Virus record (IMG/VR): IMGVR_UViG_3300033388_004179 | Span: 1-46,066 of that record | Source of the DNA: a virus | Reading direction: 5' to 3' (one strand) | DNA: 46,066 nucleotides | Shown here: positions 1 through 45,559 of the stretch, in pieces | How the letters are laid out: each line of letters begins with the position of its first letter | Numbering within the stretch: position 1 is the first letter of the stretch | Made by a program: the position numbers and the translations under genes | The notes under the pieces: generated by a model | The model's database searches: none | What the model saw: only the letters and a program-made list of their open reading frames with translations | What the model was told of the DNA's origin: nothing

Positions 1-114
1 CCAATACATACGTTTCATTCTTCCAGTTCACAATATCAGAAGGAAAATATCCCGAATATCTCGTCCACGCCATATTCTTATCTAAAATATAAATGTTATC
101 GTTATACTCTGCGG
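1..114. repeat. Terminal direct repeat, left copy (circular junction)
   Basis: These 114 bases are repeated exactly at 45953-46066. The repeat lies inside a continuous reading frame on the minus strand. It is best explained as the overlap left when a circular or circularly permuted genome is assembled as a line, giving a unique length of 45,952 bp. A true packaging repeat is less likely because those usually lie outside genes. Confidence 0.9.
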
Positions 115-5141: not shown

Positions 5142-6053
5142 TTAGATTCCAGCTGAACCGTAGAAGCCCAATGGACTCACCCAGCCCTCGGTCTTTCTAA
5201 ACCGAACTCTGAAGATAGCGTCGTCTGTGTTGTCAGGCGCGGGATACGTTTTCGTGCTGATAGCTTCTCTCATGACGAGCATGATCTGGTGCTTTTGCTT
5301 GTCTGTCATTATAGCCCATGCATCGGAATCTGTTGCGTGTTCCAGAAGAATCGGAGTTAAGCCCAACGTCTTGATGGCGTTGGTATCTCTCTGCGTTGTC
5401 CCTGCTTTGTCCTGGTTCTGCAGCAACTGAATAATCATTGCCCAGTTATCCGGGTGGCAAGCAAGATATCTCGCCTTCATCCCTGTTGAAATACCCTGGT
5501 CATTCTTGGTTGTTCTCAATGCCGGAATGGCTGCTTCTATTGCAGAAACCGAAAGGTCAACGTTAGCTGTGGGTCTGTTGGAATAAGTTGTGCTTGAACT
5601 TGAACCGTAAAGAGGGTGGTCCGTTGCTGCAAGAACCTTTCCATCAGGACCGGTATAGGCCGCCGTCTGCATTCTGTCGAGCAACATAGCCGCAATACCC
5701 GTTTCTATCGTAGCATTTGCGGAATCTCCCAGCATGGCCGGAATCTGCCTCAAGTTGCCGCTCTTGTCATCGTCAAATGCTTCTTTCTCGATTCTTACAC
5801 CGAGAGAGAATGTGTCTGACGTGAAAGTCTTTGCCACTTTCTGCACAGGGGTTGCGAAAATAGCGTTTACACCTTTTGTCTTTTTAGGAACAAGTCCTAC
5901 CCCTGTAAAACCCGCGAATTTATTGTAACTGTCTTTGCTTGGAATGATTCTTACAAGATCCTTAAACTGCGGGCTTTCTGCCATAAAATTGTCGAAAAAT
6001 ACCTTATCATAATCCTTACTGATAAGATACGCTACACCTGCTGTATTAATCAT
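5142..6053 (-). CDS. Major capsid protein (HK97-fold, Mu gpT-like)
   Basis: 303 aa. It has the layout of HK97-fold coat proteins related to Mu gpT: an N-terminal helix (DKVFFDNFMAESPQF), the block FSLGVRIEKEAFDDDKSG, the central DGKVLAATDHPLYG motif, a spine-like helix region and a C-terminal FRKTEGWVSPLGFYGSAG strand. It lies downstream of the scaffold and decoration genes, the usual order of a head operon. No signal peptide is present. It forms the icosahedral shell. The family assignment rests on motif recognition. Confidence 0.85.
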   Translation of the reverse strand: MINTAGVAYLISKDYDKVFFDNFMAESPQFKDLVRIIPSKDSYNKFAGFTGVGLVPKKTKGVNAIFATPVQKVAKTFTSDTFSLGVRIEKEAFDDDKSGNLRQIPAMLGDSANATIETGIAAMLLDRMQTAAYTGPDGKVLAATDHPLYGSSSSTTYSNRPTANVDLSVSAIEAAIPALRTTKNDQGISTGMKARYLACHPDNWAMIIQLLQNQDKAGTTQRDTNAIKTLGLTPILLEHATDSDAWAIMTDKQKHQIMLVMREAISTKTYPAPDNTDDAIFRVRFRKTEGWVSPLGFYGSAGI

Positions 6054-8260: not shown

Positions 8261-8289
8261 ATTTTATACTAAACTCTTCAAAATGTCAA
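8261..8289 (-). promoter_or_regulatory. Sigma70-type promoter for scaffold/capsid genes
   Basis: A TTGACA box (8284-8289) and TAAAAT box (8261-8266) on the minus strand are separated by 17 bp. The site lies between the 88-aa gene and the scaffold gene and would give a leader of about 120 bases. Confidence 0.7.
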
Positions 8290-8301: not shown

Positions 8302-8568
8302 TTATTCCTCTTTCTCTTCCCCATGCAATTCCTCTTCCTTCTCCGCATCATCTATGATTTCGCCGGGACCATCAATGGCGAGATTCAACCCCTGAATAAT
8401 TCCTTTCTGATGGTCATTCTCGCGATGTTCGCCTTCCAACCCTGTAAAAATGTCTAATCCTCTTCTTGTCGATTCCAGGTCTTCATTTAATTTAGCAAGA
8501 ATCATTTGATAACCCGGAGATGCAATAGTTGACTCTATACTTTCCCTAATTTCAGCAGCCTTACTCAT
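8302..8568 (-). CDS. Small acidic protein after portal
   Basis: 88 aa, very acidic at its C-terminus (EEELHGEEKEE). It overlaps the portal stop by 4 bases (ATGA), so it is translated with portal. The middle part (YQMILAKLNEDLESTRRGL) is helical and resembles a small portal-associated protein, but I recognise no family. The head-operon promoter follows it. Confidence 0.6.
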   Translation of the reverse strand: MSKAAEIRESIESTIASPGYQMILAKLNEDLESTRRGLDIFTGLEGEHRENDHQKGIIQGLNLAIDGPGEIIDDAEKEEELHGEEKEE

Positions 8569-10520
8569 TTTTCTCCTCCTTCTGGTTCCGCATTTGCCTC
8601 GATATAAGATTCTCTATACTTTACCAGCTTTTTCTCTATTTCTTCTTTAGGTACTCCCGCTTTTTCAAGTTCTTTTTTATAATCCTCGGCGCCGGCCATC
8701 CCCTCCTTGATAACAAGTTCCCGCTCCCTCTCTTTCAGTTCCTGTATCTTTTGCATAATCTGCTGCTGCGCTTGCTGGATTTCCTGTATCTCTTTCGGGT
8801 CCCTGATGATTTTCTCTACCATCTTATGGTCAACTTCTTCCACAAGGTTCTTCTTAACTTCCGCAGTATTGATTTCAAGGCTTTCATCCTTCGATAGATT
8901 ATCGAATAGAATTGCTGCCTTTTCTATAGCAGTATTTTTAATTGCCCTTATTGCTTCTGCAAGAACCGTTACAGTCATATCATCAATGTCCTCTAAATCA
9001 TCTCTCGTCAATTTATCTTCTTTTCCATCCTCTCCAATAAACGGGATACCGTCAGACGGCATAAACTCATAAAGAGTCAATAGAGTCATCCGGACTGCTT
9101 CCGTTAAACCTTCCTGTATATTCTTTAAAAGGAAATTGACATTGACATTGAACTCTCTTAACAGTGCCATTGTTCCTCTTACCGTCGGGCGTTGAACCTG
9201 TTCCCTTCCCATGGAATAATCAGTTATCATTCCCAGCTTCTCTAACAGTGTTACAATAAAACCTTCAAGTTTGTGTAAATCAAGATTGGCATGTCCTAAT
9301 TCCAATACCTTCATCACCCCCTCAAGGTTATTGACTTTTATTGTAGCACCAGGCCTTATAACCGTTTTCGTTGGCTTAAATCCTTTGCTCGGGACGTACA
9401 TTATAGTAATGGCATTACACAAAATTGCATTGTCTATTGTTACGTTATGTGTAGCATCTAATTCATCATTCATCATAGATAATCTCTGCGGTAGGCCCTG
9501 CCCTCTTATATGCCCGGCAATACGATAACAGGGAATTGATACAAGCGGTTTCCTCTTATCTGAAAGTTTGCTCTCCTCACCATGCAGATAAATATTGTTC
9601 TTTATATCAAGAACAAATTGACATTCTCTTTCTTCCACAATATCTCTACCCTGTTCATCTTGTTTCCCCGTCTTAAAAGGGTATGCTCCCCAAACTTTCC
9701 ATATTGAAACATTATTAAAATCTAAATGCATCTGGGCGTCCATATCCCCGATATGTTCGTTGATAACTGTTTCTGTTTCGTCATTCTTACTTTTCTTTAT
9801 ATCCGCTGGTAACTTATCCAAATTTACCCAGTTTTTCTTTTTCTTAATCTGATAAGTGTTAAGATGCAGCCAGCGAGCGACCCATTGAGCGTCCTGAATT
9901 GAAGTTGCTCCCTTTTCCCAAACTAAATCCCTGACTGAAATATCATCCCACTTAGGCATCCAAAATTTAACGGGTTTCTTTTTTGATATTAAACGATTCG
10001 TAGATTTATCGATATCAAAACCAAGAAACTTCGAAACTCCACCTACCAATTTCCTTATCCCCTCATACCGCCAAACTGTCTTTTCCGTTTCTATAGGATA
10101 GATTTCAAGAAACCGCGTACCCTCTACTATCAGTCCCTGGAATAAATCACAAATGACATTATATAAATTCATCACTTTAGCAAGCTTGTAATTAAAAGTC
10201 TTTGTTACTTTTCTTCCACCTTCCTTTGAAGAATTCGATAGCCCGTCTATGGCTACGAGTTTATCAGAACTATGAACCCCTGCCACAAACCTACTTTCTA
10301 ACGCTGTGTCCGCAAATGCAGCCCAAGGGACGTGAACATCCGAACTCCCCTTCCAGGGAAAGTTCTTATTTTTCTTCGAGCTATACGTTCCCAGATGCCT
10401 TTCCCACATCTCGGGAATAATCTGGGTAGTTAATGTCGCATTGCTTTTTACCCGTTCATCAATGAGCGTTTTGTAAAAACTAACAATCTGTAATTCCTCT
10501 TCCGGTGATAATTTTAACAT
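8565..10520 (-). CDS. Portal protein
   Basis: 651 aa from ATG 10520, which has a strong AGGAGG; an upstream in-frame start at 10616 overlaps the preceding gene and lacks this site. Features typical of large podovirus portals are the N-terminal MWERHLGTYSSKKNKNFPWKG block, the mid-protein RIAGHIRGQGLPQRLS motif, a long helix with DYSMGREQVQRPTVRGT, and an acidic helical C-terminal barrel-like tail. It forms the dodecameric DNA gate at one capsid vertex. It follows terminase and the GroES-like gene and precedes scaffold, the normal packaging-head order. Confidence 0.85.
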   Translation of the reverse strand: MLKLSPEEELQIVSFYKTLIDERVKSNATLTTQIIPEMWERHLGTYSSKKNKNFPWKGSSDVHVPWAAFADTALESRFVAGVHSSDKLVAIDGLSNSSKEGGRKVTKTFNYKLAKVMNLYNVICDLFQGLIVEGTRFLEIYPIETEKTVWRYEGIRKLVGGVSKFLGFDIDKSTNRLISKKKPVKFWMPKWDDISVRDLVWEKGATSIQDAQWVARWLHLNTYQIKKKKNWVNLDKLPADIKKSKNDETETVINEHIGDMDAQMHLDFNNVSIWKVWGAYPFKTGKQDEQGRDIVEERECQFVLDIKNNIYLHGEESKLSDKRKPLVSIPCYRIAGHIRGQGLPQRLSMMNDELDATHNVTIDNAILCNAITIMYVPSKGFKPTKTVIRPGATIKVNNLEGVMKVLELGHANLDLHKLEGFIVTLLEKLGMITDYSMGREQVQRPTVRGTMALLREFNVNVNFLLKNIQEGLTEAVRMTLLTLYEFMPSDGIPFIGEDGKEDKLTRDDLEDIDDMTVTVLAEAIRAIKNTAIEKAAILFDNLSKDESLEINTAEVKKNLVEEVDHKMVEKIIRDPKEIQEIQQAQQQIMQKIQELKERERELVIKEGMAGAEDYKKELEKAGVPKEEIEKKLVKYRESYIEANAEPEGGEK

Positions 10521-10533
10521 TTTATTTTTCCTC

Positions 10534-10890
10534 CTAATCCTTAACCTTATCTTCTGCCTTTCGAAGGCAGGCATACACGTCTTCAGCTTTAACAATTTTG
10601 TGTGGATGCCCGTCAATTTCTAATTCTATACCCGCATATCTGTGTACGAAAATTACATCACCAATTTCAAGTTTGAATTCTTTCAAACCAAAATCTTCTG
10701 CAGTTACATCTTCCGCCAAACACAAAAGTTTCCCCTTGTCAATTCTACCTTGAAGAACCTCTTGTCGCATTTCAGGCAAAACAATTCCGCTTTTTGTTTT
10801 TTCTTTTACTTTTTCCATTCGAACCAAAATGTTTTTTTTAAAAAGCGTTAAAGAATCCCCCTTCTCATCAATAAATGAACACATTAACAT
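10534..10890 (-). CDS. GroES-like co-chaperonin
   Basis: 118 aa with AGGAGG ribosome site. Residues 17-110 follow the Cpn10 plan: NILVRMEKVKEKTKSGIVLP (start strand and mobile-loop region), GKLLCLAEDV, LEIGDVIFVHRYAGIELE, then DGHPHKIVKAEDVYAC. GroES caps GroEL and lets it fold client proteins. T4 gp31 is the known phage analogue needed for its capsid protein. No GroEL is encoded, so it would work with the host chaperonin. Its place between terminase and portal suggests a role in folding the capsid or portal. About 16 extra N-terminal residues precede the core. Confidence 0.85.
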   Translation of the reverse strand: MLMCSFIDEKGDSLTLFKKNILVRMEKVKEKTKSGIVLPEMRQEVLQGRIDKGKLLCLAEDVTAEDFGLKEFKLEIGDVIFVHRYAGIELEIDGHPHKIVKAEDVYACLRKAEDKVKD

Positions 10891-10921: not shown

Positions 10922-12286
10922 TCATCCATATCCTATGCGGCCGACGGCTTGTTCCATATCTTCTGGCGGCCGCTCATCCGACTCTTCTTGATAGTCATCC
11001 GGATCAAGTTGTGAATGACAGAATATACCCATCGCACATGCCTCGGCGCGGTCAGGGCTCCTTCCCAGAGCAGCTTTCATATCTTTTTTAGATGTCATTT
11101 TAACTCCGGTGTCCGACGCTATCTCGTAAGTCATTGCTGATAACTGGCTCTTTAATAGTTCATCATCAATAATCGATATTTTATTATCAACAAATTTATC
11201 TAAAACAATGTCCCACATTTCCATTTTTATTTTGCCGATTTTATATTTGATAGGATCTGTAGCCTGTTCGGCTCCGTTGAACGCAATTGTAGGATATTCC
11301 AGTTCCATTAACCGGTCTGCTATTCCCGGAAAAATTACAGAATCTATAATAATGATATTTGCTTTATGCTGCTTGAAAAGCCTGATTATATTTCCAACAG
11401 TCTGCATAGTGTTAACCTTTCCATAATACATAAAATCAATTATTTTTAAGCCCCGGAAAACATAAATTACTGTTTCATCATCACCCATACGCGCAGGATC
11501 ACAGGATATAATAACCGGCTCTTTAGTAAGAGGCTTTACCAGTACTCTATTTACCGCTGTATTTATAGTCTTATAGGGGATAAGAGTGTTGGTTGCCTCA
11601 AGATCATCCCAGCTGCCCTTTATGTATGCCCTCAATAACCGGGGTTTATTTTGGTAAAGTTCTTTTAATGATTCGATATAAGCCGGCGCCCCTGGAGATG
11701 GATTCGATGCCGGAAGCGCCTGTATGAAATTATAATCCTTATGCGGCCGGAGAATGAATTTATCCTTTACCCAGCCCTGTCGGGGATTACAGGATAACAT
11801 ACCCCTGAATTGCGGAAGAGTGCCATCCGGGAGAACATACCTTAACGTCCCCGCTATAGCCCTCCAATCATCCGGACTCATCTCCTCCGCCTGGTCAAGA
11901 GCGAAAAAACCAAGTTCCATACTGTTGAACTTTTCTACCATCTCTCTATCATCAAGACCGCCATAAAAAAATTCAGAACCATTTGGAAATAAAATACGAT
12001 GCTCCTGTTTCTTGTGTTCATAAGCAGCTGCAGGAATTTCTCTGAACCATGTTCTTAAAGTGGATGTCTTAAAATCAGTTCCTCTTTTACGCCCCATAAA
12101 CCCATAATTGCCAGGGTATTCCATACATAATCTATATACTTCCCAGCAAATAGCTTTACTTTTTCCACCATATTTTGCACCGCCGATTAAAGTATATTTG
12201 TGTGTATCATTATGAAATGCCTTTTGTTCTCTCGTCGGGGTATCGTTTCCGTAAAATACTACCTCTGTATCGTTAAACTGTTCCAT
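10922..12286 (-). CDS. terL: Terminase large subunit
   Basis: 454 aa. The ATPase half has Walker A GGAKYGGKS (35-43) and Walker B LGFFALDQAEEM (125-136). The nuclease half has the RNase H-like acids: SCDPARMGDDE (D263), IIIIDSVIFPG (D315) and RSPDRAEACAMG (D412). All catalytic features are present at about the usual length. The enzyme cuts concatemeric DNA and pumps it into the head through portal. Its start overlaps the DUF5681-like gene by 14 bases. Confidence 0.95.
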   Translation of the reverse strand: MEQFNDTEVVFYGNDTPTREQKAFHNDTHKYTLIGGAKYGGKSKAICWEVYRLCMEYPGNYGFMGRKRGTDFKTSTLRTWFREIPAAAYEHKKQEHRILFPNGSEFFYGGLDDREMVEKFNSMELGFFALDQAEEMSPDDWRAIAGTLRYVLPDGTLPQFRGMLSCNPRQGWVKDKFILRPHKDYNFIQALPASNPSPGAPAYIESLKELYQNKPRLLRAYIKGSWDDLEATNTLIPYKTINTAVNRVLVKPLTKEPVIISCDPARMGDDETVIYVFRGLKIIDFMYYGKVNTMQTVGNIIRLFKQHKANIIIIDSVIFPGIADRLMELEYPTIAFNGAEQATDPIKYKIGKIKMEMWDIVLDKFVDNKISIIDDELLKSQLSAMTYEIASDTGVKMTSKKDMKAALGRSPDRAEACAMGIFCHSQLDPDDYQEESDERPPEDMEQAVGRIGYG

Positions 12287-13988: not shown

Positions 13989-14017
13989 ATTATACAACGA
14001 ATAACAATGAATGTCAA
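13989..14017 (-). promoter_or_regulatory. Perfect sigma70 promoter of the leftward late block
   Basis: TTGACA (14012-14017) and TATAAT (13989-13994) on the minus strand are separated by exactly 17 bp, a full match to the consensus. It faces the late operon and is likely its main promoter. Confidence 0.85.
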
Positions 14018-17200: not shown

Positions 17201-17229
17201 TTGACAAGTTATGGAGTTTGGGCTATAAT
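17201..17229 (+). promoter_or_regulatory. Perfect sigma70 promoter
   Basis: TTGACA (17201-17206), 17-bp spacer, TATAAT (17224-17229), with ACCCC just upstream as at two other early promoters. Transcription would start near 17236 and first make the structured RNA that follows. Confidence 0.85.
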
Positions 17230-17235
17230 AAGGTA

Positions 17236-17360: not shown

Positions 17361-17372
17361 TAGGAGTGGATT

Positions 17373-19599: not shown

Positions 19600-19931
19600 A
19601 AACTTTAGAGAGGCAATTACAGCGACAATGTGAGGAACTTTTGAATATAAAGAACATTCCGTATTTGCATTTGACGACGGCAATACATAGACAGGTTGGC
19701 AAACAATGGAGAACTTTTGCGGTAGAGAAAAATAAAGGATTCCCGGATTTGACAATTTTCTTCCCGAAGAAAAAAGGCGGGGCGGTATTTTGCGAGTTAA
19801 AATCGGCAAAGGGAAAACTCAAGCCGGAGCAGATTGCATTTAGAGAGCAAGTGGAAGGGTTAGGATTTAAATATTTCGTAGTAAGGTCGTTAGAAGAATT
19901 TGAAACTATTATTGATAAGGGGGAATTATGA
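19596..19931 (+). CDS. VRR-NUC domain nuclease
   Basis: 111 aa, almost a single domain. The PD-(D/E)XK core is GFPDLTIFFP (D51) and FCELKSAKGKLKPEQIAF (E67, K69, Q79), the VRR-NUC signature. VRR-NUC proteins of phages are stand-alone structure-specific nucleases that can cut Holliday junctions or flaps. It lies between the helicase and Mini-A genes, overlapping both, consistent with recombination or replication-intermediate processing. Confidence 0.85.
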   Translation: MKTLERQLQRQCEELLNIKNIPYLHLTTAIHRQVGKQWRTFAVEKNKGFPDLTIFFPKKKGGAVFCELKSAKGKLKPEQIAFREQVEGLGFKYFVVRSLEEFETIIDKGEL

Positions 19932-20812
19932 TTGATGTTTATAACAGGAAGTGGATTACCAAAAATGCGGTTGAAGTTCTTGGAGAATATTCAAGCGGAA
20001 TAACATTGAGGCAGTTACATTACCGACTGGTTGCTTTGGGAATGACAAACGACGTAAATCATTATAAGAGGGTTATTGGTGCAATGACTGTTTCTCGTTG
20101 GGATAGAACGGTGTCAATGGATTCTTTTATTGATAGGGAAAGGGCGATGTATGGAAAAACCGAATGCGAGGAAAAATTGCTTGAAGATGAAATAGCGACG
20201 GGTAAAACGCAAATAGAAGCGTGGATAAATTCTTATGGGTTAAACAGGTGGTCTAACCAAGAAAATTATATAGAAGTATGGATAGAGAAAAAAGCATTGC
20301 AGGGCGTATTTGAAAGACCTTGCTTATTCGCTGATGTGGGTCTTGCCCCGTGCAAAGGTTATCCGTCTATAACTTTTTTAAGCGAAGCGAGCCATAGATT
20401 TATAAATGCACGGGATAATGATAAAAATTTAATAATCCTTTATTTTGGGGATTACGACCCAAGCGGTGAAGATATACCGCACTCCATAAAAAGGAATTTC
20501 AATAAATTCGGCGTTGATATTGATATTAAACGTATTGCATTAAATCCAGACCAGATAAAAAAAATGAGATTGCCCGGAGTTCCTCCGAAAAGTGGGGATA
20601 GCAGAACTAAAAATTGGGCTGGCGACGCTGTTGTGGAATGCGACGCTGTTGAACCTAAAACACTTTCTAAAATGTGTAAAGAGGCAATAGAGAAATATTT
20701 TGACGAAACCCTTTATGATGAATTAAAAGAAAAAGAAGAAGAAGAAAAAGAATTATATAAAATAGCATTGAAAAAGTTTATTAAAAATTTCGGCAGTAAA
20801 GGGGAATTATGA
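19928..20812 (+). CDS. Topo VIA/Spo11-like protein (Mini-A type)
   Basis: 294 aa. The N-terminal winged helix carries ITLRQLHYRLVALGM with Tyr32 at the place of the catalytic Tyr of the 5Y-CAP domain. The TOPRIM part has YIEVWIEKKAL (E120) and LYFGDYDPSGED (D175, D177). RIALNPDQIKKMRLPG follows, and a charged helical end. This combination is that of the Topo VI A subunit-like Mini-A proteins described from mobile elements. No B-subunit ATPase is present here. A DNA cleavage or topological role in replication is inferred. Confidence 0.7.
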   Translation: MIDVYNRKWITKNAVEVLGEYSSGITLRQLHYRLVALGMTNDVNHYKRVIGAMTVSRWDRTVSMDSFIDRERAMYGKTECEEKLLEDEIATGKTQIEAWINSYGLNRWSNQENYIEVWIEKKALQGVFERPCLFADVGLAPCKGYPSITFLSEASHRFINARDNDKNLIILYFGDYDPSGEDIPHSIKRNFNKFGVDIDIKRIALNPDQIKKMRLPGVPPKSGDSRTKNWAGDAVVECDAVEPKTLSKMCKEAIEKYFDETLYDELKEKEEEEKELYKIALKKFIKNFGSKGEL

Positions 20813-20892: not shown

Positions 20893-20902
20893 TATGATAG
20901 AT

Positions 20903-21538
20903 ATGAAAAAGCCAGCAGAAAATACACAAAGAACCAAGTCGGGGCGAGGTTTGTCTTTGCTGGCTTCCTCGCCTCGTAAATCAAAGAAGGTCAAAAGGGT
21001 TTGTAAACAATGTGGAAAAGAATTTTTTGTATATTTAAGTGGAATAAAGGAAAGGGCATATAAAGGATATGAAGGGGCGGGAAATTTTTGTAATCGGGGA
21101 TGTGTCAATAAATATTTTAAGCATTTTAGATTAAAAAGTAATAATCCTATTTGGAAGGGTGGAGAGGCAAGAAGAATATGTGAAAACTGCAATAATATTT
21201 TTTATGTTCCAAAAGTAAGAATAAAAATAGGATATGCAAAGTTTTGTAGTAATAAATGTAGATATAAATATTTAAGAGGAAAAAATCATCAAAGTTGGAA
21301 AGGAGGAGAAAGGCTTTGGAAAAAACGGGATGCATCTTCATCTAAATATAAGAATTGGCGAGCAAAAATATTCAAGCGAGATAACTGGACTTGTCAATTA
21401 TGTAAAGATAGAAGCAGAAAAGGACACAATGTTATTCTTGAAGGCCATCACCTAAAAAGTTGGAAAAATTACCCGAAGTTGAGATATACATTGTATAATG
21501 GAATAACATTATGCCACGAATGTCATTTAAGTAATTAA
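20903..21538 (+). CDS. HNH homing endonuclease with zinc ribbons
   Basis: 211 aa from ATG 20903. The start at 20894 lies 1 bp from the -10 box and cannot be on the transcript. Two ribbons occur: CKQCGKEFFV...FCNRGC and CENCNNIFYV...FCSNKC, with an intervening NPIWKGG. The HNH domain follows: CQLCKDRSRKG, LEGHHLKSWKNYP and GITLCHECH. It would cut DNA at a target site and spread by repair. The mRNA would be nearly leaderless. It sits between the Mini-A and RecB-like nuclease genes with its own promoter. Confidence 0.85.
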   Translation: MKKPAENTQRTKSGRGLSLLASSPRKSKKVKRVCKQCGKEFFVYLSGIKERAYKGYEGAGNFCNRGCVNKYFKHFRLKSNNPIWKGGEARRICENCNNIFYVPKVRIKIGYAKFCSNKCRYKYLRGKNHQSWKGGERLWKKRDASSSKYKNWRAKIFKRDNWTCQLCKDRSRKGHNVILEGHHLKSWKNYPKLRYTLYNGITLCHECHLSN

Positions 21539-23204: not shown

Positions 23205-23233
23205 TTGACAAAATGAACATTTCGTGTTATACT
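23205..23233 (+). promoter_or_regulatory. Sigma70 promoter of the second homing endonuclease
   Basis: TTGACA (23205-23210), 17-bp spacer, TATACT (23228-23233), five bases after the stop of the 136-aa gene. Confidence 0.75.
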
Positions 23234-23248
23234 TATAGTGAGGAAAAA

Positions 23249-24076
23249 ATGCAGGCTGAAATAATAAAATCAATGGGGGCGGGTTTTGAGGATACTTCTT
23301 TACCCAAAGAAGTTACTCACACATTAGCCTGTGTTTCCCGTCCCCGTAAATCAGGAAAAATCAAACTAATTTGTCAGCAGTGTGGAAAGGAATTCCCAGT
23401 TTATCCCTCGGATATTAAAAATAATAGAAGATTTTGTTCACAAAGGTGTGGAGCAATAGGACGTATTCCGTGGAATAAGGGATTACATACAAAAGGAACT
23501 CCACATACAGAAGAAACAAAAAGAAAATTAAGTGAGATACATAAAAGAATTGGTGCACCCTGGAATATAGGTAGGAAATATTCTAAAGAAAGATGTGAAA
23601 GGATAAGTAAGGCAAATATGGGTAAACCTTCTTGGTGGAAAGGAAAAAAGCATACTAAAGAAACGAAATTAAAAATGAGTTTAGCGTGTAGAACAAAAAG
23701 AGATAATTCAGTATATGCAGGTAAAAATCATTGGAATTGGCAAGGTGGGAAATCATTTGAACATTATGAAATAGAATTTAATAAAAAATTAAAAGAAAAA
23801 ATAAGAAAGCGAGATAATTATATTTGCCAAGAATGTTTTAAACATCAAGACAAATTATTTACTAAAAATAAAAATGGAAATAGCGTTAAGGAAAAACTTT
23901 CTATTCATCATATTGATTATGACAAAAAAAATAATAATCCCGATAATTTGATTTCATTATGTAGGAATTGCCATTGTAAAACAAATAAACGACATAGGAT
24001 ATATTGGATAAATAGATATAAACAATCGCGCCTAAAATCGGCAAATCAAGAGAAAAATCAGGGGTATCAGAAATGA
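23249..24076 (+). CDS. HNH homing endonuclease with NUMOD3 motifs
   Basis: 275 aa from ATG 23249, which has GAGG in front; an upstream start at 23213 lies inside the promoter. Order of parts: zinc ribbon CQQCGKEFPV...FCSQRC; NUMOD3 DNA-binding repeats (HTEETKRKLSEIHK, YSKERCERISKANMG, HTKETKLKMS); an NHWNWQGG motif; and HNH (CQECFKHQD, LSIHHIDYDKKNNNPDN, LCRNCH). Its end overlaps the next gene by 4 bases, so it keeps translational coupling. Its last residues, GYQK, copy those of the gene upstream. Confidence 0.85.
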   Translation: MQAEIIKSMGAGFEDTSLPKEVTHTLACVSRPRKSGKIKLICQQCGKEFPVYPSDIKNNRRFCSQRCGAIGRIPWNKGLHTKGTPHTEETKRKLSEIHKRIGAPWNIGRKYSKERCERISKANMGKPSWWKGKKHTKETKLKMSLACRTKRDNSVYAGKNHWNWQGGKSFEHYEIEFNKKLKEKIRKRDNYICQECFKHQDKLFTKNKNGNSVKEKLSIHHIDYDKKNNNPDNLISLCRNCHCKTNKRHRIYWINRYKQSRLKSANQEKNQGYQK

Positions 24077-29058: not shown

Positions 29059-29300
29059 ATTACGACGAAAATCAAAATTCATATTCCGGCTACGGCTCCG
29101 GCTACGGCTACGGCGACGGCGACGGCTACGGCTACGGCTACGGCTCCGGCGACGGCTCCGGCGACGGCTACGGCTCCGGCTACGGCGACGGCGACGGCTA
29201 CGGCTACGGCTACGGCTCCGGCGACGGCTCCGGCGACGGCTACGGCTCCGGCTACGGCTACGGCTACGGCTACGGCTACGGCTACGGCTACGGCTATTAA
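29043..29300 (+). CDS. Low-complexity Gly-Tyr-Ser-Asp repeat protein
   Basis: 85 aa from ATG 29043 with GGGAGG. After MERSINYDENQNSYS, every second residue is Gly and the others are Tyr, Ser or Asp. The DNA is a chain of GGCTAC, GGCTCC and GGCGAC hexamers containing a higher-order block repeated about twice, and its GC content is far above its neighbours. Such chains can self-associate or form sticky assemblies. It overlaps the previous gene by 16 bases. The copy number could vary by slippage. Confidence 0.7.
   Translation: MERSINYDENQNSYSGYGSGYGYGDGDGYGYGYGSGDGSGDGYGSGYGDGDGYGYGYGSGDGSGDGYGSGYGYGYGYGYGYGYGY
29094..29297 (+). repeat. Hexamer tandem repeat within Gly-Tyr gene
   Basis: Repeats of GGC plus TAC, TCC or GAC fill about 200 bp with no interruption. 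It ends in a run of GGCTAC units. Confidence 0.85.
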
Positions 29301-29316
29301 AAGATAGGCAAAAAAA

Positions 29317-29385
29317 ATGATACCGGCGTTACTTATGGTTTTTTCGCTGTTATTTATTTGGATAATAACGGGGACGGGGAAATGA
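29317..29385 (+). CDS. 22-aa membrane peptide
   Basis: MIPALLMVFSLLFIWIITG forms one span. The ribosome site is weak. It is one of several very short hydrophobic frames in this block, and the least certain. Confidence 0.3.
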   Translation: MIPALLMVFSLLFIWIITGTGK

Positions 29386-29395
29386 GGAGGAAGAA

Positions 29396-30390: not shown

Positions 30391-30498
30391 ATGAATAAAG
30401 ATTTTCCATGGAAGGGAAATAAAAGTTACGGGTGCTGGTTCTTCGACTGGATTCACGATTGTATTGTATTATTTTTCTTCCACTTGAAGAGAGATTAA
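30391..30498 (+). CDS. 35-aa aromatic peptide at the convergent end
   Basis: An AGGAGGG site precedes MNKDFPWKGNKSYGCWFFDW. It ends by overlapping the convergent giant gene by 4 bases. Supported only by the ribosome site. Confidence 0.4.
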   Translation: MNKDFPWKGNKSYGCWFFDWIHDCIVLFFFHLKRD

Positions 30499-33400
30499 CG
30501 CAAAAATTTCTGATATTTTATTTTCAAATTTTTTTGTGCATATCTCATATAAGTCATTTTTTCTTTATCTGTCATTCTCTCTATTAGAGCTTGCTGATCC
30601 TCTTCAGGAAGGCGCTGGAACATAACTATATCTCCCCGGCCAAGGACCCCTTGTCTTTGTAATTTATACATTTTTTCAAACCATCCAAATGAAACCACCC
30701 CATCTCTTATCATCTGTTGCATTTCGGAACTTGTTAAGAGTTCATTCTTTTCCATCCGTCGTCTTATTTTTTTCTTTATTTGACCTTTTTCCCACTGCTC
30801 TCTTGATTTTACAGATCCTCCGAATCTTTTAACCCAAATATCTCCGATTTCTTTTTGTATTTTTGTTTTTGTAATATAACTGGGGGCAGGATTCATTCCT
30901 AAAAATGGCATGATTGTAGGAGTTCCCATTTCTTTTTGTCTTAGATATCCTTGAATAGAAAAAGGTCTATTTGCCGAAGCAAGATATTCTAAAAATTGTT
31001 TTCCCTGCACAAATTTAGGAGCATTGATATCTCTTATTTCAGTTCCGAAATAATCTCTATTCATCAGCAATTGGGAGAATTGGGATAATAGCGGTGAGAA
31101 CTTATGGCTGGCGTATAATGCCGGACCTGTTACTAATCCATGTTTTCTTAATGCCTCTCTCATAGCAAAGTACTCTTTAGTCCCTGCAGGTAATGTCAAT
31201 CTTTCATCTGAACCATCCGGATTCTTATTCCCTGTCCTTGGTGCATAATAATCAAGTAATTCTTCAGGTCTTTTTTTTGTCAAAGCCCAGGTTACTAAAC
31301 CCCCGAACATTCCGACAATCATAACATACACCATTAAATAGATAGTTCTATCGGTAAATTTGACTTCTTTTTGGCGCAACGGTAATTTACCCGGTTCTCC
31401 CGGCAATGCTTTTCCATAAGTCATATTGTAAATAGAATTAGAGAAATCATAAACCCCGCCGGCAAACTGATCGAAGTTCCCCCAGTTCCAGCCCAGAGAG
31501 AGAGACATTGCCATTGTTAACTCTTTTATTGTTTTATCCCAGAATAAGTTATCATAAACTACCTGCCCGAATCTTGCATCTATATTCCGGGCGATAGTGC
31601 CTAATTCTTTATCTTGTTCTATATCTGTCATATTAGGATGTGCCGCTATAAAATCAGAAGCATTTTTAAGATATGTTGAAATCTTTAATTGAGGTACCCA
31701 CCATTCCATGACTGGAGTTGAAAGTATTTCTGTAATAGCAGGAATAATTTCTAATGTTGCGCCAAGATACTCACCTTTCATAAGCGCCCGTCTTATAGTT
31801 CTTATACCATTAACTCTCCAATATTTACTCATTCTTGGTCTCATCCCACCACGAGTTAACAATTCTACTGCCTTCTCCTGGCCGGAAGTTTTTGCTCCTT
31901 TGTACCATGCCTTTCTTGTGGCAAATCCTTCCACCAAAGGTAAAATAGGAAAAATACCAGGTATATTTCTTCCGACTATACTCCATAATCCTTTGGCATA
32001 ATCTCCGCGAGCTATCTGTTCTATACCTACAGTTATGTTACTTGATATTGCTGATAATCCTGTTTCTATTGTATGAAATCCACTCAAGGTAAGCATGATA
32101 GAAACCATCATATTTTTTGCTCTCATTATACCCCTGAATGCAGAGCCGCCAAGATTATCACTATGCCACCAGGAAGGGGAGAGCCATCGTCTTAATACAT
32201 TAGCAGTAGGAGTTGGAAAGATATAATCACCCCCCACCACAACACCTTTTTCCGTAGGGAAAAATGCTCTTAACATAGGTTCCCCTTCTTTAGTTGTACC
32301 TACTTTTGACCACCCTTCAGGAGCGGCGCCTACTCCTTTTTGGAATTGTGCTAACCCATAACTTTTCAATTGTGACAGAATTTCCTTTGTCATTTTATTA
32401 TGAGCAGAGGCATCAGCTCTCATCAAAACGAGGTCAACAGGATTCATACTTTTTAATTCTAATCCCGCTTTTATACCATCTGCTATGAGCCGATGATATC
32501 TTTTTTTAGCAAAGGCAGGAGTTCTTGAAAATTTCTTAACATAACTTTTTGCTTTTTTAGCATTCTTCCAGATATGAGGAAAATAATTTTCTATATAATT
32601 TAATTTATCTTCGTATGCTACATCTTCATCATATGCTCTATCTAATATTCGTTTTAGATTTTTTGCTATTTTATTTAATTCAGGAGTTTCCTGTAACTCC
32701 CCTCTTTCCATTTTATCTAAGAATTTTATATTGTCCTCTGTACTTTGTCTATCAAAAAATATCTGTGTAGCGTCCATTACTCTCTGCAATCTATCTAATA
32801 AAAGAGCCCTATCTGCTTGCTGTCTCCTTAAAATAGATTTTACTGTTGACACCTTTTCTACTGGGGCATTGAAAATCTTATCACCGAAGGCAATAATTGT
32901 TTCTTCAGAAATAGGTATTCCTATTGCAGCATATAATTTTTCTGTACTCTCATACATTTCTTCATCACCTATAAGTTCTCCTTCTTTATCTCTAACTGGC
33001 TCAACCGGCAGTTTTAATTTCGCCCATTTTTTAAGATCTTTTACTTTTGCTGATGGGATTTGTAATTCCTGTCCTATCTCCAGATCAGTAGGAGCTTTGT
33101 CATGTTCCTGTTGATACTGGTTTATAAATGCTTCCATTTTACTGACGTTAATAGAAACCTGTTTAGGTTTTCGTATCACTGCTCCTGGTCTTAAATTTTT
33201 AATATCTGCATTCATCTGGTTATTGATTGCTTTCCAAACATAGGTTGAAAACTTGACACCTTTTTTAGGATCGTATGATTTGATAGCATTCAGTATCGCC
33301 AGGTTGCCGGCGGATTGTAATTCGCTGAAATTTAATCCCAATCCTTTGTGTGCTACTGCTAAATCTTTCACCATACCCGTATATGCTTTTACTGTCTCTT

Positions 33401-35207
33401 CTTTAGATAATTTTTTCTTTACCGGGGGTTTAACCTTCTCCGTTACCGGGGGCTTAGCTTTCTTAACGACGGGAGCTCCGATTAATTCTCCCTTTAATTT
33501 ATTCATCTGTCCTTTGTAAACTGTTACTTCTTTCCCGTCTACCAGGTGGACTATATCCTTGCCTGTCATCTCATCTTTCATAAAATAAGCTTTATATTTT
33601 TCATCTTTTGGTAATGTAACTTCAACCCCTGCTATATTTTTTACTTTTATATTCTCTCCCATTTGAAAATCTTGTACCTTTTCTGCACGTTCTTTTAATG
33701 CAGGTTCCGTCTCCACATATTTAACTTCTTCTTTTCTTTCTTTTATTCTTTTTACAATTGCTTCCCTTAGTTCATCTTCGTCCATTCCCATTTCTTGTGC
33801 CTTTACATCCGGACGGGAAAGGAATTCAAAATCTTTAAAAACCTTCATATACATTCCCGGGCCTAATGCTTCTCTCCAGTCTGTTTTTGTAGTAGTAGCC
33901 GGTCTCATCCGTTCCTGTCCGTCAATAATTCTATCTATTGTTGCTTTTTCGATGACTTTCTTTTTCGCAATAACTTTGGGAGGAAGAACAGGTTTTACCT
34001 CTGCTTCTTCTACTTCCCGCTCTGTTGGTATGGTTGTTTTCTGAATAGTATCTAACGCGCTTATTTGTTCTTTGGCATATTCAACAGCATCCTTGTTCAT
34101 GCCTTTGAAAGCAAGAGTTATCGCTGTTTTAACTGAATTTATAACACCATCAATTTCTGCCAACTGGGATGCTTTTAATGTTGGTTCTAAAGCTGGTGCT
34201 GTAGCAATTTCTATATTTTGTCTTACTCTCATTACATCATCTATCTGATCAGAAATAGTTTTAACAGCGGACGGAGTAGTTGGGGTTAAAGTCCCAGCCC
34301 TCATTTGACCAGAAGCTCTTCGGAGTTCATTAAGTGGAGATTTATAATTAAGATCAAGAGTCATAGGTTCTTTGAATTGTTTCAATATTACTTTTCTTAT
34401 ATATTCTTTTTTAGCTTTAGCGGAATAACCTTTTATTTTTTTCATCTGCTTGGCTATTTTAATGGCTGCTTGTTTTGCCTGCCATTTATTTAATTTCGAA
34501 AAATGTTTACCTATCCAAATTGCTGCTTTACTTTTAGTCCAAGCCGCCGTAGACCATCCCGTTTTAGCAGCTGCTCTGGCTACGAGTGGTCCAGCTTCAG
34601 ATAATGCCGCATAAGTCATCCAGAATTCAGGTGTAGTTACCGGCGCTCCAAACTTTCCTATTATTTCTTTACCTACCACTTCAGGAGCGGCTTTCAGAAA
34701 ATTATAATAAAAACTTTTTTTCTTTGCTTCCGAGCCTATTACCAGTCCATAAGCTTCTCCTAATCCACTTCCTACTAATGTCCCAACCTGTTCCCATCCT
34801 TCAACTGTCATCTTAGCTGGTTTATGGGTAAGTTTCCAAACAAGCGCAGGTGCTTTTGCGATAGCTTTTTCAATTTTTGGAAATCTTAAAGGTATTAATT
34901 TTTCTTCTGTCAAAGGTGAAATTGTTATCCCGGGTTCTGCCATTCGAGATGGATCTGCAGGCAATCCCCATCTGCCGGCCGTCTTCGGAATTTCAGGAGC
35001 CACCCATTCTTTTGCAGTTTGTCTCCAATCTTCTTCCGGGGATATTCCTCTTATCTTTGTTAATGCTTCTTCTACCGGGGGTAATCCCTCTTTTGGCACT
35101 GTTGGCAATTTTTGCTGTCGTATATTAAGTAACGCTTGTTCTACTGGCAATCTCGCGGGTTTTTCCCGCAAATTTGCTAATGCTTGCTCAATCGGTATTT
35201 TCGGCAT
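30495..35207 (-). CDS. Giant 1570-aa virion-like protein with embedded sigma70 domain
   Basis: It opens with three repeats of a VEQALLNIR-like motif (residues 5-53). Residues 100-300 are helical and basic. Residues 605-730 match sigma70 regions 2 and 3: LNFSELQSAGNLAILNAIKS, YDPKKGVKFSTYVWKAIN and a PTDLEIGQELQIPSAKVKDL helix-turn-helix. The C-terminal half has hydrophobic spans (1031-1048, 1289-1308) and DARFGQVVYDNLFWDKT, recalled from large phage internal (polyvalent-like) proteins. It would be packaged and ejected with DNA, where the sigma part could redirect host RNA polymerase. No region 4 is evident. It ends the late block and has no clear ribosome site, so it is probably coupled to the upstream gene. 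Confidence 0.8.
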   Translation of the reverse strand: MPKIPIEQALANLREKPARLPVEQALLNIRQQKLPTVPKEGLPPVEEALTKIRGISPEEDWRQTAKEWVAPEIPKTAGRWGLPADPSRMAEPGITISPLTEEKLIPLRFPKIEKAIAKAPALVWKLTHKPAKMTVEGWEQVGTLVGSGLGEAYGLVIGSEAKKKSFYYNFLKAAPEVVGKEIIGKFGAPVTTPEFWMTYAALSEAGPLVARAAAKTGWSTAAWTKSKAAIWIGKHFSKLNKWQAKQAAIKIAKQMKKIKGYSAKAKKEYIRKVILKQFKEPMTLDLNYKSPLNELRRASGQMRAGTLTPTTPSAVKTISDQIDDVMRVRQNIEIATAPALEPTLKASQLAEIDGVINSVKTAITLAFKGMNKDAVEYAKEQISALDTIQKTTIPTEREVEEAEVKPVLPPKVIAKKKVIEKATIDRIIDGQERMRPATTTKTDWREALGPGMYMKVFKDFEFLSRPDVKAQEMGMDEDELREAIVKRIKERKEEVKYVETEPALKERAEKVQDFQMGENIKVKNIAGVEVTLPKDEKYKAYFMKDEMTGKDIVHLVDGKEVTVYKGQMNKLKGELIGAPVVKKAKPPVTEKVKPPVKKKLSKEETVKAYTGMVKDLAVAHKGLGLNFSELQSAGNLAILNAIKSYDPKKGVKFSTYVWKAINNQMNADIKNLRPGAVIRKPKQVSINVSKMEAFINQYQQEHDKAPTDLEIGQELQIPSAKVKDLKKWAKLKLPVEPVRDKEGELIGDEEMYESTEKLYAAIGIPISEETIIAFGDKIFNAPVEKVSTVKSILRRQQADRALLLDRLQRVMDATQIFFDRQSTEDNIKFLDKMERGELQETPELNKIAKNLKRILDRAYDEDVAYEDKLNYIENYFPHIWKNAKKAKSYVKKFSRTPAFAKKRYHRLIADGIKAGLELKSMNPVDLVLMRADASAHNKMTKEILSQLKSYGLAQFQKGVGAAPEGWSKVGTTKEGEPMLRAFFPTEKGVVVGGDYIFPTPTANVLRRWLSPSWWHSDNLGGSAFRGIMRAKNMMVSIMLTLSGFHTIETGLSAISSNITVGIEQIARGDYAKGLWSIVGRNIPGIFPILPLVEGFATRKAWYKGAKTSGQEKAVELLTRGGMRPRMSKYWRVNGIRTIRRALMKGEYLGATLEIIPAITEILSTPVMEWWVPQLKISTYLKNASDFIAAHPNMTDIEQDKELGTIARNIDARFGQVVYDNLFWDKTIKELTMAMSLSLGWNWGNFDQFAGGVYDFSNSIYNMTYGKALPGEPGKLPLRQKEVKFTDRTIYLMVYVMIVGMFGGLVTWALTKKRPEELLDYYAPRTGNKNPDGSDERLTLPAGTKEYFAMREALRKHGLVTGPALYASHKFSPLLSQFSQLLMNRDYFGTEIRDINAPKFVQGKQFLEYLASANRPFSIQGYLRQKEMGTPTIMPFLGMNPAPSYITKTKIQKEIGDIWVKRFGGSVKSREQWEKGQIKKKIRRRMEKNELLTSSEMQQMIRDGVVSFGWFEKMYKLQRQGVLGRGDIVMFQRLPEEDQQALIERMTDKEKMTYMRYAQKNLKIKYQKFLR
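33018..33395 (-). other. Sigma70 region 2-3 domain (residues about 605-730)
   Basis: Within the giant protein, GLNFSELQSAGNLAILNAIK aligns with region 2.1-2.2 of sigma70 (DLiQEGniGLmrAvekFD). KKGVKFSTYVWKAINNQM matches the region 2.3-2.4 block (rGfkFSTYAtwwIrqai). The segment beginning TDLEIGQELQIPSAKV matches region 3. A basic stretch GAVIRKPKQ replaces RTIRIPVH. Confidence 0.75.
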
Positions 35208-38055: not shown

Positions 38056-38483
38056 ATTTCGCCTCCTGCCCAGACCTTTATAATGGTGTTGTCCGGACGC
38101 CCTATCTTTTTTCCATAAATCCAAATTCTCGGCTCCGGCAACTCAGGACTTTGGTCTATATGCAGAAAAGTGTTTGCTATCCCGATTCGGATTCTCTCAC
38201 TATTATCAAATGCAAACTTTATTATCTTTGCACGGGTTAAACTATGCAAGCAACGAATGTCCGCCGCATCCCCGAATAAATGGGAGGATGTCGGCTTGCC
38301 CCCGTGCTTCTTATTATTTTTCTTACACCGGAAGCCGGAAGTAATTACAATAGGAAAGCCCATTTTTGCCCTCATCTCATCTAAAAATTCAATAAAACTC
38401 GGTCGCATTATTTCTAAACCGCAACCGCATTTGCAGACAAATTCCTCACGTTTGAAAAAGGTAATTTTATTCCAATCTTTCAC
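38049..38483 (-). CDS. M15-family peptidase endolysin
   Basis: 144 aa from GTG 38483. The zinc site is complete: SGFRC, then SSHLFGDAADIR (H68, D75) and FLHIDQS (H108), the Peptidase M15 (D,D-/L,D-carboxypeptidase) set. It lacks a signal peptide, so it needs a holin to reach peptidoglycan. It cleaves peptide stems in the wall. Its start overlaps the homing endonuclease end by 4 bases (GTGA). Confidence 0.9.
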   Translation of the reverse strand: MKDWNKITFFKREEFVCKCGCGLEIMRPSFIEFLDEMRAKMGFPIVITSGFRCKKNNKKHGGKPTSSHLFGDAADIRCLHSLTRAKIIKFAFDNSERIRIGIANTFLHIDQSPELPEPRIWIYGKKIGRPDNTIIKVWAGGEIC

Positions 38484-39214
38484 GATAACGCCTCCAGTAT
38501 AATATCAATACATTTTTCTGCTGATTTCTTAATTTCTGTTCCTGAAAAACGGAATACTTTATATCCTGCAAGCGAAAGTAAAGTATTTTGATTCATATCT
38601 CTGTTTTTCTTCCCCACTTTTTCAGCCCATTTACTATTATGAAAAAAATTACCATCACAATAAATTATGATTTTATTAGGTAAAAGAAAATCAACAATCG
38701 TATGTGCTTTAGGAATAGGGACTTGTTTATTATAAGAAATATGTCGTTGATTCAATTCTTTTTCTATTGCTATTTCTATATCAGTGTCTTTCGTTTTTCT
38801 ATGTTTCATTCTCCATATTGCAGAACAACTTTTACCACAAAAATCACCTTGTCCCTTTTTTACAAAAAAAGGTTTTCTATAAAATAGTTTTCCGCAAATT
38901 TTGCATATTCTTTTTGCCTTTCCACCTTTCCACCGGTAATGTTTTTCTCCTTTTTTATTTTTATTAGCACACTTTGTTGAACAAGTTTGTCCTCTTCCTT
39001 TTATTTTTAATAAACAACGTTTCATTAAAAATTCTTTACCACAAATTCTGCAAACACGTTTTATTTCACCCCCTTTCCAAACAGGGCTATTTTTCCCTCT
39101 ATGGAATAAACCTACACATTTTATAGAACAAAATTTCCCTCCCCCTCGTTTTATTGACGAAGGATGTGAATAAAATACCTTCCCACATTGTTTGCAAATA
39201 CATTTTATTTTCAC
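38480..39214 (-). CDS. Vsr-like (DUF559/EDxHD) homing endonuclease with three zinc ribbons
   Basis: 244 aa from GTG 39214. Three ribbons (CKQCGKVFYS...FCSIKC, CRICGKEFLM...TCSTKC, CKICGKLFYR...FCGKSC) are each followed by a KGG or basic motif. The Vsr-like core follows: IEIAIEKELNQR, AHTIVDFLLP, IIYCDGNFFHNS, RDMNQNTLLSLAGYKVFRF. It resembles EDxHD homing endonucleases of the I-Bth0305I kind. It has its own -10 box and lies inside the lysis cassette. Confidence 0.8.
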   Translation of the reverse strand: MKIKCICKQCGKVFYSHPSSIKRGGGKFCSIKCVGLFHRGKNSPVWKGGEIKRVCRICGKEFLMKRCLLKIKGRGQTCSTKCANKNKKGEKHYRWKGGKAKRICKICGKLFYRKPFFVKKGQGDFCGKSCSAIWRMKHRKTKDTDIEIAIEKELNQRHISYNKQVPIPKAHTIVDFLLPNKIIIYCDGNFFHNSKWAEKVGKKNRDMNQNTLLSLAGYKVFRFSGTEIKKSAEKCIDIILEALS

Positions 39215-43906: not shown

Positions 43907-44873
43907 TGAAAATCAGCACCCCTGCAAAAAGCGGTGAACTCCCGCTTTTATAAACTTCATCATCATAATAAGTTAAAATATAATCAAGATAAGTCCCTAT
44001 TGCTCCAATCGTTACATTTTCCGCATAGGTCGCTGTTCCTGATTTCAGAGAATATGGGACTGTCCCTGCGTCGCAAGTAAAATCACCTTCAACATTTACT
44101 CTGCCTTCAAAATAACCTGCGTAACCGTCTGAATCAGGATTATATCCATATACTCCGTTACCAGTTCCGTCGGATTCCCCTGAAACGCCTGTCCCGCCTG
44201 CCGCACTAACTCCCTGAACTCCTATCCCAATAGATGTGCTTTCTCCTTTAACCCCTGTCCCCGCACTTTCAGCATATCCCTGAACCCCTGTTCCCGAATT
44301 TGTATCCGTATAACCTGAAACACCAATTCCATCCGTAGAACCACCGAAAATCGCCCCTACATTAAGAGTATAAGTATCAATGACTATCAGTTTATAATTA
44401 TTGTCCGACGCTACTAACCCCGCAAAATCCGTCGTTACATCAAACAACCCCGAAGGAGTTATCGCCAATCGCCCGCCTGTGCTTACTCTGACATTACAAC
44501 CATTCCAATAAGTATCCATTACGCAAGTCCTATAAACCGCCGCTTCCCCGTTTATCCCCCGTGATAATTTTTCCAAACTATTTTCGAACAGTTGCCCTTG
44601 AACGTCGTCGTCTATAAGAGTATGGCGTTGCTCTGTCCGGACATCCCGAGCCCAGAGGGTTTTATCCATTGTTTCGGTCGCTATCGTGCCGGTGCTGAAC
44701 CCGAGTTCTACGGTTTTTGTTTTCACATTTTTAATTCTTCTATCAAGTTCATCAAAATTACGATTGAGAATTGCCGGCAGTCGTTCCAATTCAATATCAC
44801 GAGGAATACGAAACGGCACGTCGGCTTTAATTATAGAAACAAAAAGTAAAATTAAAATTATTTTCCTTAACAT
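43878..44873 (-). CDS. Fibre-like protein with Gly-repeat shaft and signal peptide
   Basis: 331 aa. Signal MLRKIILILLFVSIIKAD. FRIPRDIELERLPAILNRNF resembles a virion-attachment helix at the N-terminus. The middle has repeated Gly-Thr-Gly-Val-x-Gly units (TGVQGYAESAGTGVKGES, GVQGVSAAGGTGVSGES), a collagen-like or triple-helix-like shaft. It directly follows the nozzle and homing genes, so it may attach fibres to the tail. Confidence 0.65.
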   Translation of the reverse strand: MLRKIILILLFVSIIKADVPFRIPRDIELERLPAILNRNFDELDRRIKNVKTKTVELGFSTGTIATETMDKTLWARDVRTEQRHTLIDDDVQGQLFENSLEKLSRGINGEAAVYRTCVMDTYWNGCNVRVSTGGRLAITPSGLFDVTTDFAGLVASDNNYKLIVIDTYTLNVGAIFGGSTDGIGVSGYTDTNSGTGVQGYAESAGTGVKGESTSIGIGVQGVSAAGGTGVSGESDGTGNGVYGYNPDSDGYAGYFEGRVNVEGDFTCDAGTVPYSLKSGTATYAENVTIGAIGTYLDYILTYYDDEVYKSGSSPLFAGVLIFNGNVLYHKP

Positions 44874-45559
44874 TTTTTCATTCCTAATTTTCTTATTGCG
44901 AATAATGGTGTTTCCCTATAAACTAATTCGTGGCAACTTTGACACATTGTTATTCCATTATCTATATCAAACCTCAATTCTGGAAAATCCTTCCAACTTC
45001 TAATATGGTGTGCGTTTAATTTCCCACCGGTTTTGCCACATATTACACATCTATAACCATCTCTTTTATATATCATTTTTCGCCAAAGTTTTACTTCATT
45101 GTTTGAACCTCGTCTATCCCAAAAATCTATCCCCCCTTTCCAACGTGGACTTTTTTCACCAATTAGATGTTTCCCAAAAAATGAACATTTTTCACCTCTT
45201 ATATTTTCGCTTCTCCATTTACCATAACATTGCTTATCGCAAAATTTTCCTCTCCCCTTTTTAATTCTCGCCATTCGTGTATAAAAAACCTTACCGCAAA
45301 ATTTGCATATTCTTTTTGTTTTACTTATACCACCTTTCCAATTAGGATTATTTTCCCCATTCACAACTCTACACATTTTTGGATAAGATTTTCCTTTTCT
45401 TGCTTCCCTCATTTTTATCCTTGTTTCTTCAGAAATCCCTTTTTTCCCCTTATTCCAAGGAAGTTGCCCTTTGTGTCCTTCCCTCATTTTTCTCTTTGCT
45501 TCTACAGAGTGATGTTTTCCTTTCATCCAAGGAGTATTTCCCTTTTGAAATCCTTGCAT
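44867..45559 (-). CDS. HNH homing endonuclease with NUMOD3 motifs and zinc ribbon
   Basis: 230 aa, AGGAG site 10 bases after the nozzle stop. NUMOD3 units (HSVEAKRKMREGHKGQ, SEETRIKMREARKGK), NNPNWKGG, then a ribbon CKFCGKVFYT...FCDKQC and SPRWKGG. HNH: CVICGKTGGKLNAHHIRSWK and GITMCQSCHE. Its end overlaps the fibre start by 7 bases and contains that gene's ribosome site. Inserted between the nozzle and fibre genes. Confidence 0.85.
   Translation of the reverse strand: MQGFQKGNTPWMKGKHHSVEAKRKMREGHKGQLPWNKGKKGISEETRIKMREARKGKSYPKMCRVVNGENNPNWKGGISKTKRICKFCGKVFYTRMARIKKGRGKFCDKQCYGKWRSENIRGEKCSFFGKHLIGEKSPRWKGGIDFWDRRGSNNEVKLWRKMIYKRDGYRCVICGKTGGKLNAHHIRSWKDFPELRFDIDNGITMCQSCHELVYRETPLFAIRKLGMKKC

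Follow-up and report, generated by a model that had tools for sequence, protein, structure and literature searches.

The last late gene of an uncultured phage encodes a protein of 1570 residues in which some 155 residues, at about positions 597–754, are almost certainly homologous to regions 2 and 3 of sigma70, the profile matches being strong enough to exclude chance. The phage is represented by one genome, and the fusion is known from that single genome. The window discussed here is the whole stretch of DNA that was analysed, 46,066 nucleotides of the IMG/VR record IMGVR_UViG_3300033388_004179, and the coordinates of its features are collected in Table 1. As an explanation we tentatively propose, at somewhat less than even likelihood, that this is an ejected late protein whose sigma module docks on the RNA polymerase of the host.

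Table 1. Features of the window that bear on the 1570-residue protein and its sigma module
Feature	Position in window	Strand	Basis
1570-residue protein (P0001); its gene closes the late operon, and it is presumed to be an internal virion protein that is ejected	30495..35207	-	Open frame, position
K/P-rich linker preceding the sigma module, about residues 579–595	33423..33473	-	Read from sequence; low confidence in AlphaFold model
Sigma70-family module, residues 597–754: regions 2.1–2.4, 3.0–3.1 and start of 3.2 linker	32946..33419	-	PHROG_351, RpoD_Cterm, PDB RpoD, AlphaFold/Foldseek
Sigma region 2, residues 606–665	33213..33392	-	PF04542, E 2.3e-7, 30.9 bits against a cut-off of 24
Sigma region 3, residues 692–730	33018..33134	-	PF04539, E 4e-4, under the curated cut-off; full-length RpoD alignments also support it
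Lone strongly hydrophobic segment, residues 1291–1309; candidate membrane span	31281..31337	-	Kyte–Doolittle scan, mean 2.05
Major capsid protein	5142..6053	-	phrog_371, 1.2e-17; 22–28% identity to podovirus capsid proteins
Portal protein	8565..10616	-	phrog_1216, 2.7e-13; 30% to MW202601
Terminase large subunit	10922..12286	-	phrog_2, 5e-30
Sigma70 promoter upstream of capsid-region genes	8261..8289	-	TTGACA-17-TAAAAT, 11/12
Perfect sigma70 promoter at the head of the late (minus) operon	13989..14017	-	TTGACA-17-TATAAT, 12/12
Perfect sigma70 promoter of the early (plus) operon	17201..17229	+	TTGACA-17-TATAAT, 12/12
Terminal direct repeat, exact, 114 bp	1..114 = 45953-46066	.	Closes contig to a 45,952-bp circle

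The sigma module

A significant sigma match is returned by four libraries, namely PHROG, NCBIfam, PDB and Pfam. PHROG_351 ('sigma factor') matches residues 598–754 (4.4e-16), the NCBIfam model RpoD_Cterm residues 602–742 (1.9e-14) and solved RpoD structures in the PDB the equivalent of residues 597–749 (8e-14); the Pfam model PF04542 scores above its cut-off, and the whole-domain RpoD alignments (RpoD_Cterm and PDB) span region 3 as well. An earlier note on this DNA had placed a sigma region 2–3 domain at residues 605–730, which do correspond to window positions 33018–33395 and lie within the 1570-residue frame; the profile search bears out this homology and carries it further, to the limits given in Table 1. 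Compared with RpoD and other group 1 sigma70 proteins, the module aligns over its whole length, with KFSTY and the first part of the 3.2 linker inside the alignment, but it is embedded in a large late phage protein in which neither region 1.1 nor region 4 was found. Region 4 is the part of sigma70 that contacts the –35 element and the beta flap. Its model PF04545 gave no match at E <= 10 in either the protein or the genome, the same search being positive in 14 of 14 control genomes, and no second sigma region 2 occurs elsewhere in the record.

A structure of the module was predicted with AlphaFold from an alignment with ten RpoD-type sequences. Its confidence is high for most of sigma2 and sigma3 (pLDDT 76–95 as block means) and drops in the linker that joins the two. 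The solved structures listed as matches by Foldseek are all sigma factors or RNA polymerase–sigma models, at a probability of 1.00. The predicted fold agrees with that of sigma, a result that is not independent of the sequence match because the alignment was itself RpoD-based.

A misassembly that joined a host sigma gene to a phage gene is exceedingly improbable. It is true that one record covers the region and that a contig 99.9% identical to that record, IMGVR_UViG_3300033144_005004, has no match to the region of the 1570-residue gene. Against an artefact, however, stand the single uninterrupted frame of 1570 codons, the distance of the module from any known sigma factor (about 28–30% identity), its lack of region 4 coding sequence, and its GC and GC3, which equal those of the flanks and the rest of the gene, so that nothing points to a recent insertion or a chimera.

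Conservation was compared with 82 RpoD-like sequences, which have 79 near-invariant positions; an E. coli row was typed in as the numbering guide. The module retains 26 of the 79, including L404, G408, N409, the whole of KFSTY (K426-F427-S428-T429-Y430), I435, R451 and P453, so that N409, F427, Y430 and R451 are kept among the sigma70 contact residues tested. Replaced are Q406 and E407, which we take to be core contacts in E. coli sigma70; W433, W434, Q437, T440 and R441, which presumably serve there in the reading and melting of the –10 element; and H455 and E458, presumably extended –10 positions. By this comparison, most of the promoter- and core-contact residues of sigma70 are changed and the fold core is retained. 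Alternative sigma factors likewise lack the W433/W434 pair and differ at many contact positions, and for this reason the replacements are to be read as altered contacts, not as loss of function.

A different reading of the same residues is that the module has been exapted: a helical bundle derived from sigma would no longer bind RNA polymerase and would be a DNA-binding or structural part of the ejected protein inside the capsid or the channel. This agrees with the retention of only a third or so of the RpoD-invariant positions (26/79) and with the loss of most known functional contacts, but the strong conservation of KFSTY, G408-N409, R451 and P453, together with homology that runs into the 3.2 linker, suggests something beyond a bare bundle, and we think exaptation rather unlikely. 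Some binding of the module to the host RNA polymerase is marginally more likely than not.

The 1570-residue protein and its genome

The exact terminal repeat indicates that the genome is complete in this window and closes to a circle of 45,952 bp. Genes for terminase, portal, capsid and tail lie on the minus strand, which continues beyond the junction with more late genes, an endolysin gene and, last of all, the gene for the 1570-residue protein; replication genes are on the plus strand. Between terminase and portal lies a gene for a 118-residue GroES-like protein (window 10534–10890, minus), which resembles GroES-type proteins of related podoviruses, and an annotated GroES or Cpn10 gene is found near terminase, portal or capsid in most of the relatives fetched. 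The 46-kb genome also has four HNH endonuclease genes (window 20894–21538, 23213–24076, 38480–39214 and 44867–45559), two of them within the late operon, and tandem GGCTAC/GGCGAC repeats at window 29059–29395 (plus), read as a low-complexity stretch.

The gene for the 1570-residue protein begins with an ATG 2 nt past the upstream stop and has no clear Shine–Dalgarno sequence. A short repeat, P-[IV]-E-[QE]-A-L-x-x-[IL]-R, occurs three times in the N-terminus of the protein (window 35046–35207, minus). Outside the sigma module, the remaining residues, approximately 1400 in number, were unmatched in searches with Pfam, PHROGs, tblastn, phmmer and hhalign, and no homology to a known ejection protein was found there by the same methods. 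LPD38, which we had suspected in the C-terminal part, had no Pfam match and none in a genome search that was run without a positive control; nor were other catalogued polyvalent-protein domains, metallopeptidases included, detected in the protein by Pfam or by a genome search of the same uncontrolled kind. AlphaFold, run without an alignment on residues 780–1570, gave a pLDDT of 36 and no usable model of the C-terminal half.

The label of ejection protein is therefore taken from position and size, given that these 1400 residues have no homologue. The relatives of the capsid protein belong to several podovirus-like phages (22–28% identity), the late operons of which end in large proteins: a 1068-residue 'DNA transfer protein' in DSL-LC04, and proteins of 1078 and 1533 residues in vir526. 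The gene for the 1570-residue protein is the last on the minus strand and terminates the late structural operon, a place that matches that of the large DNA-transfer proteins of these podoviruses. With DSL-LC04 and vir526 the phage shares a related capsid protein, a similar gene order and this end of the late operon; in contrast to the 1570-residue protein, their last late proteins (1068 and 1533 residues) have no sigma domain, and similarity between its sequence and those of their large proteins was not detectable. On the basis of position and size, and not of homology, the 1570-residue protein is probably an ejected virion protein. The earlier note had pictured a virion-like, ejected protein with membrane spans; the position in the late operon fits the first part of that description, whereas the hydropathy scan finds one strong span instead of several.

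Alternatively, the product might stay outside the virion and act as a large late intracellular regulator, either of late transcription or of the host RNA polymerase. Such a role would be compatible with a virion location deduced from position and size and with the orphan nature of the rest of the protein. It is distinctly unlikely, however: the gene closes a structural operon at the site where related phages have large DNA-transfer proteins, and the one predicted membrane span also speaks against such a role.

Promoters and transcription of the phage

A promoter scan gave two matches at 12/12 and five at 11/12, all with 17-bp spacers; the chance mean over 20 shuffles was 1.55 at 11/12, with none at 12/12. 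An extended –35 box, ACCCCTTGAC, is common to three early promoters (window 16200, 17201 and 20864, plus). With such canonical promoters, the host sigma70 holoenzyme can start both the early and the late programme, and there is no obvious need for the phage to supply a sigma that reads promoters. No over-represented –10-like 8-mer that might mark an alternative phage promoter occurs upstream of genes, where the over-represented 8-mers are only purine-rich words resembling ribosome sites. Downstream of the perfect early promoter (the two together at window 17201–17375, plus) is a 144-nt leader with no match in Rfam; it folds better than shuffles (z –2.6), and its interleaved complementary segments, CATTGACGA/TCGTCAATG and GCCCGTGG/CCACGGGC, possibly form alternative structures or a pseudoknot.

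The topoisomerase-like gene (window 19928–20812, plus) is 50–53% identical to genes of Alistipes, Bacteroides and Elizabethkingia phages. The promoters and ribosome sites of the phage nevertheless do not look Bacteroidota-like. A Bacteroidota host, to which the topoisomerase had pointed, was set aside: –7/–33 promoters are not enriched, canonical sigma70 promoters are, and GGAGG ribosome sites are common. As to an RNA polymerase of its own, the earlier note had held that the phage has none, and this agrees with the complete genome: neither Pfam nor PHROGs showed one among the proteins scanned, Pfam gave no single-subunit polymerase domain of the N4-like type for the large proteins, and a genome search with PF00940 gave no match, its positive controls also being silent.

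It was further suggested in that note that the module would let the phage seize host RNA polymerase. The module would then arrive with the DNA as a functional promoter-specificity factor, with which the host core would transcribe phage promoters, perhaps through a –10-only element in the manner of T4 gp55. The fold of regions 2 and 3 is retained, as this would require, and the replaced residues are compatible with activity, since alternative sigma factors also do without W433/W434. There is, too, the precedent of gp55 itself, a phage sigma that works with region 2 and without region 4, its sigmaR2 domain binding the clamp helices (PMC7892883). On the other hand, gp55 is small, unfused and synthesised in the infected cell, whereas the module sits in a giant late product, and gp55 is fully active only with gp33 and the gp45 clamp; no gp33-like coactivator was identified here. 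The visible promoters, of early genes and late operon alike, are canonical host sigma70 promoters, no alternative –10-like word stands out, and Q437, T440, R441, W433 and W434, the residues for –10 reading in sigma70, are all changed. We consider a specificity factor unlikely; of the earlier claim the homology stands and the seizing of polymerase for phage promoters is weakened by the perfect host-type promoters, the missing region 4 and the loss of most promoter-contact residues. A docking, tether or decoy role is preferred because the host-type promoters are the main evidence against seizure.

As a pure decoy, the injected module would fill the sigma site on the host core and lower host transcription, with no positive role for the phage. 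A fold core that is kept while the promoter-contact residues and region 4 are lost is the pattern expected of a competitor. However, the phage relies on host sigma70 promoters, so that a strong decoy would harm the phage itself, and two core-contact residues are changed; this, too, seems unlikely.

The docking proposal and comparable systems

The docking that we tentatively propose would proceed as follows. The 1570-residue product would belong to the large internal proteins that a podovirus-like phage ejects, and would have acquired a sigma2–sigma3 module of the sigma70 type from an RpoD-like sigma factor. Made late and packaged, it would enter the cell with or ahead of the DNA, and the module, which would not be a complete promoter-reading sigma factor, would dock at the beta-prime clamp of any core RNA polymerase that is free in the host. 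There it might keep polymerase near the incoming genome, displace host sigma from part of the pool, or both; the phage genes would meanwhile be transcribed by the host holoenzyme, starting at ordinary sigma70 promoters. What we infer is that the protein is packaged and ejected, that its module binds core and that transcription is affected. Observed, and in favour of docking, are the sigma homology in four libraries, the absence of region 4, the position at the end of the late operon and the canonical promoters, to which may be added the AlphaFold fold, the kept fold-core positions, the GC3 and the precedents below. Against it are the 1400 residues or so without a homologue, the lack of a relative with the fusion, the replacement of core contacts Q406 and E407, and the RpoD-based alignment behind the AlphaFold model. 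The fuller claim, that a sigma module in an injected virion protein captures host RNA polymerase during DNA entry as a polymerase-free counterpart of the N4 and crAss-like strategies, is possible but somewhat doubtful.

Some jumbo phages inject whole polymerases, and T4 Alt is an injected enzyme that modifies the host polymerase. If the proposal is true, it would add a third way to these two, acting by docking and not by catalysis, and the domains catalogued in polyvalent ejection proteins would come to include one from a transcription factor. Polymerase is carried in the virion by N4 (PMC5512222) and by crAss-like phages (PMC10172136). Like the N4-type virion RNA polymerase and the polyvalent proteins, the 1570-residue protein is a very large late product, presumed to be injected, that joins unlike domains, one of them for transcription; it differs in bearing a sigma module instead of a polymerase and in that no catalogued domain was detected in it. 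With the cargo RNA polymerase of crAss-like phages the likeness is in the presumed strategy, the delivery of transcription machinery from the virion, but there the polymerase is multisubunit, and here a sigma-like module stands alone with no polymerase found (PMC10172136). The survey of polyvalent proteins by Iyer et al. 2017 (PMC5512222) describes N4-type polymerases, ADP-ribosyltransferases and others in injected proteins and makes no mention of sigma, and no report of a virion-borne sigma factor was found in the open-access subset of the literature, which is weak evidence of novelty. Among the readings weighed, an injected polyvalent protein with a sigma module that would dock on host RNA polymerase, in a variation on the N4-type strategy, is the most likely.

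The earlier note had named the same fusion in related phages as a check; the search, in INPHARED and IMG/VR, found no second fusion. Exact-peptide scans of IMG/VR and GTDB genomes, which require exact words, returned no homologue of the 1570-residue protein, and with tblastn against INPHARED the sigma part alone matched, to ordinary sigma factors, with no fusion among the hits opened. In relatives chosen by capsid, portal or topoisomerase (for the topoisomerase, 50 IMG/VR records), searches without a positive control gave neither a sigma region 2 that scored above the cut-off nor anything matching the 1570-residue protein. The capsid alignment was too diverged to be used as a scanning profile. 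The best 80 sigma loci of IMG/VR are RpoD-like or other free sigma factors, with no fusion in an ejection-type protein, and two motif-based scans likewise found no fusion; a codon pattern for K-F-[ST]-T-Y-x-W gave one match, a free sigma2-only protein. This standalone phage protein of 117 residues (L264, 7340–7693, minus, in IMGVR_UViG_3300029267_005630) differs from the module, to which it is 33% identical, in being small, free and not fused, but has KF[ST]TY[VI]W..I.N in common with it, the tryptophan at the same unusual place, and is possibly a minimal phage sigma.
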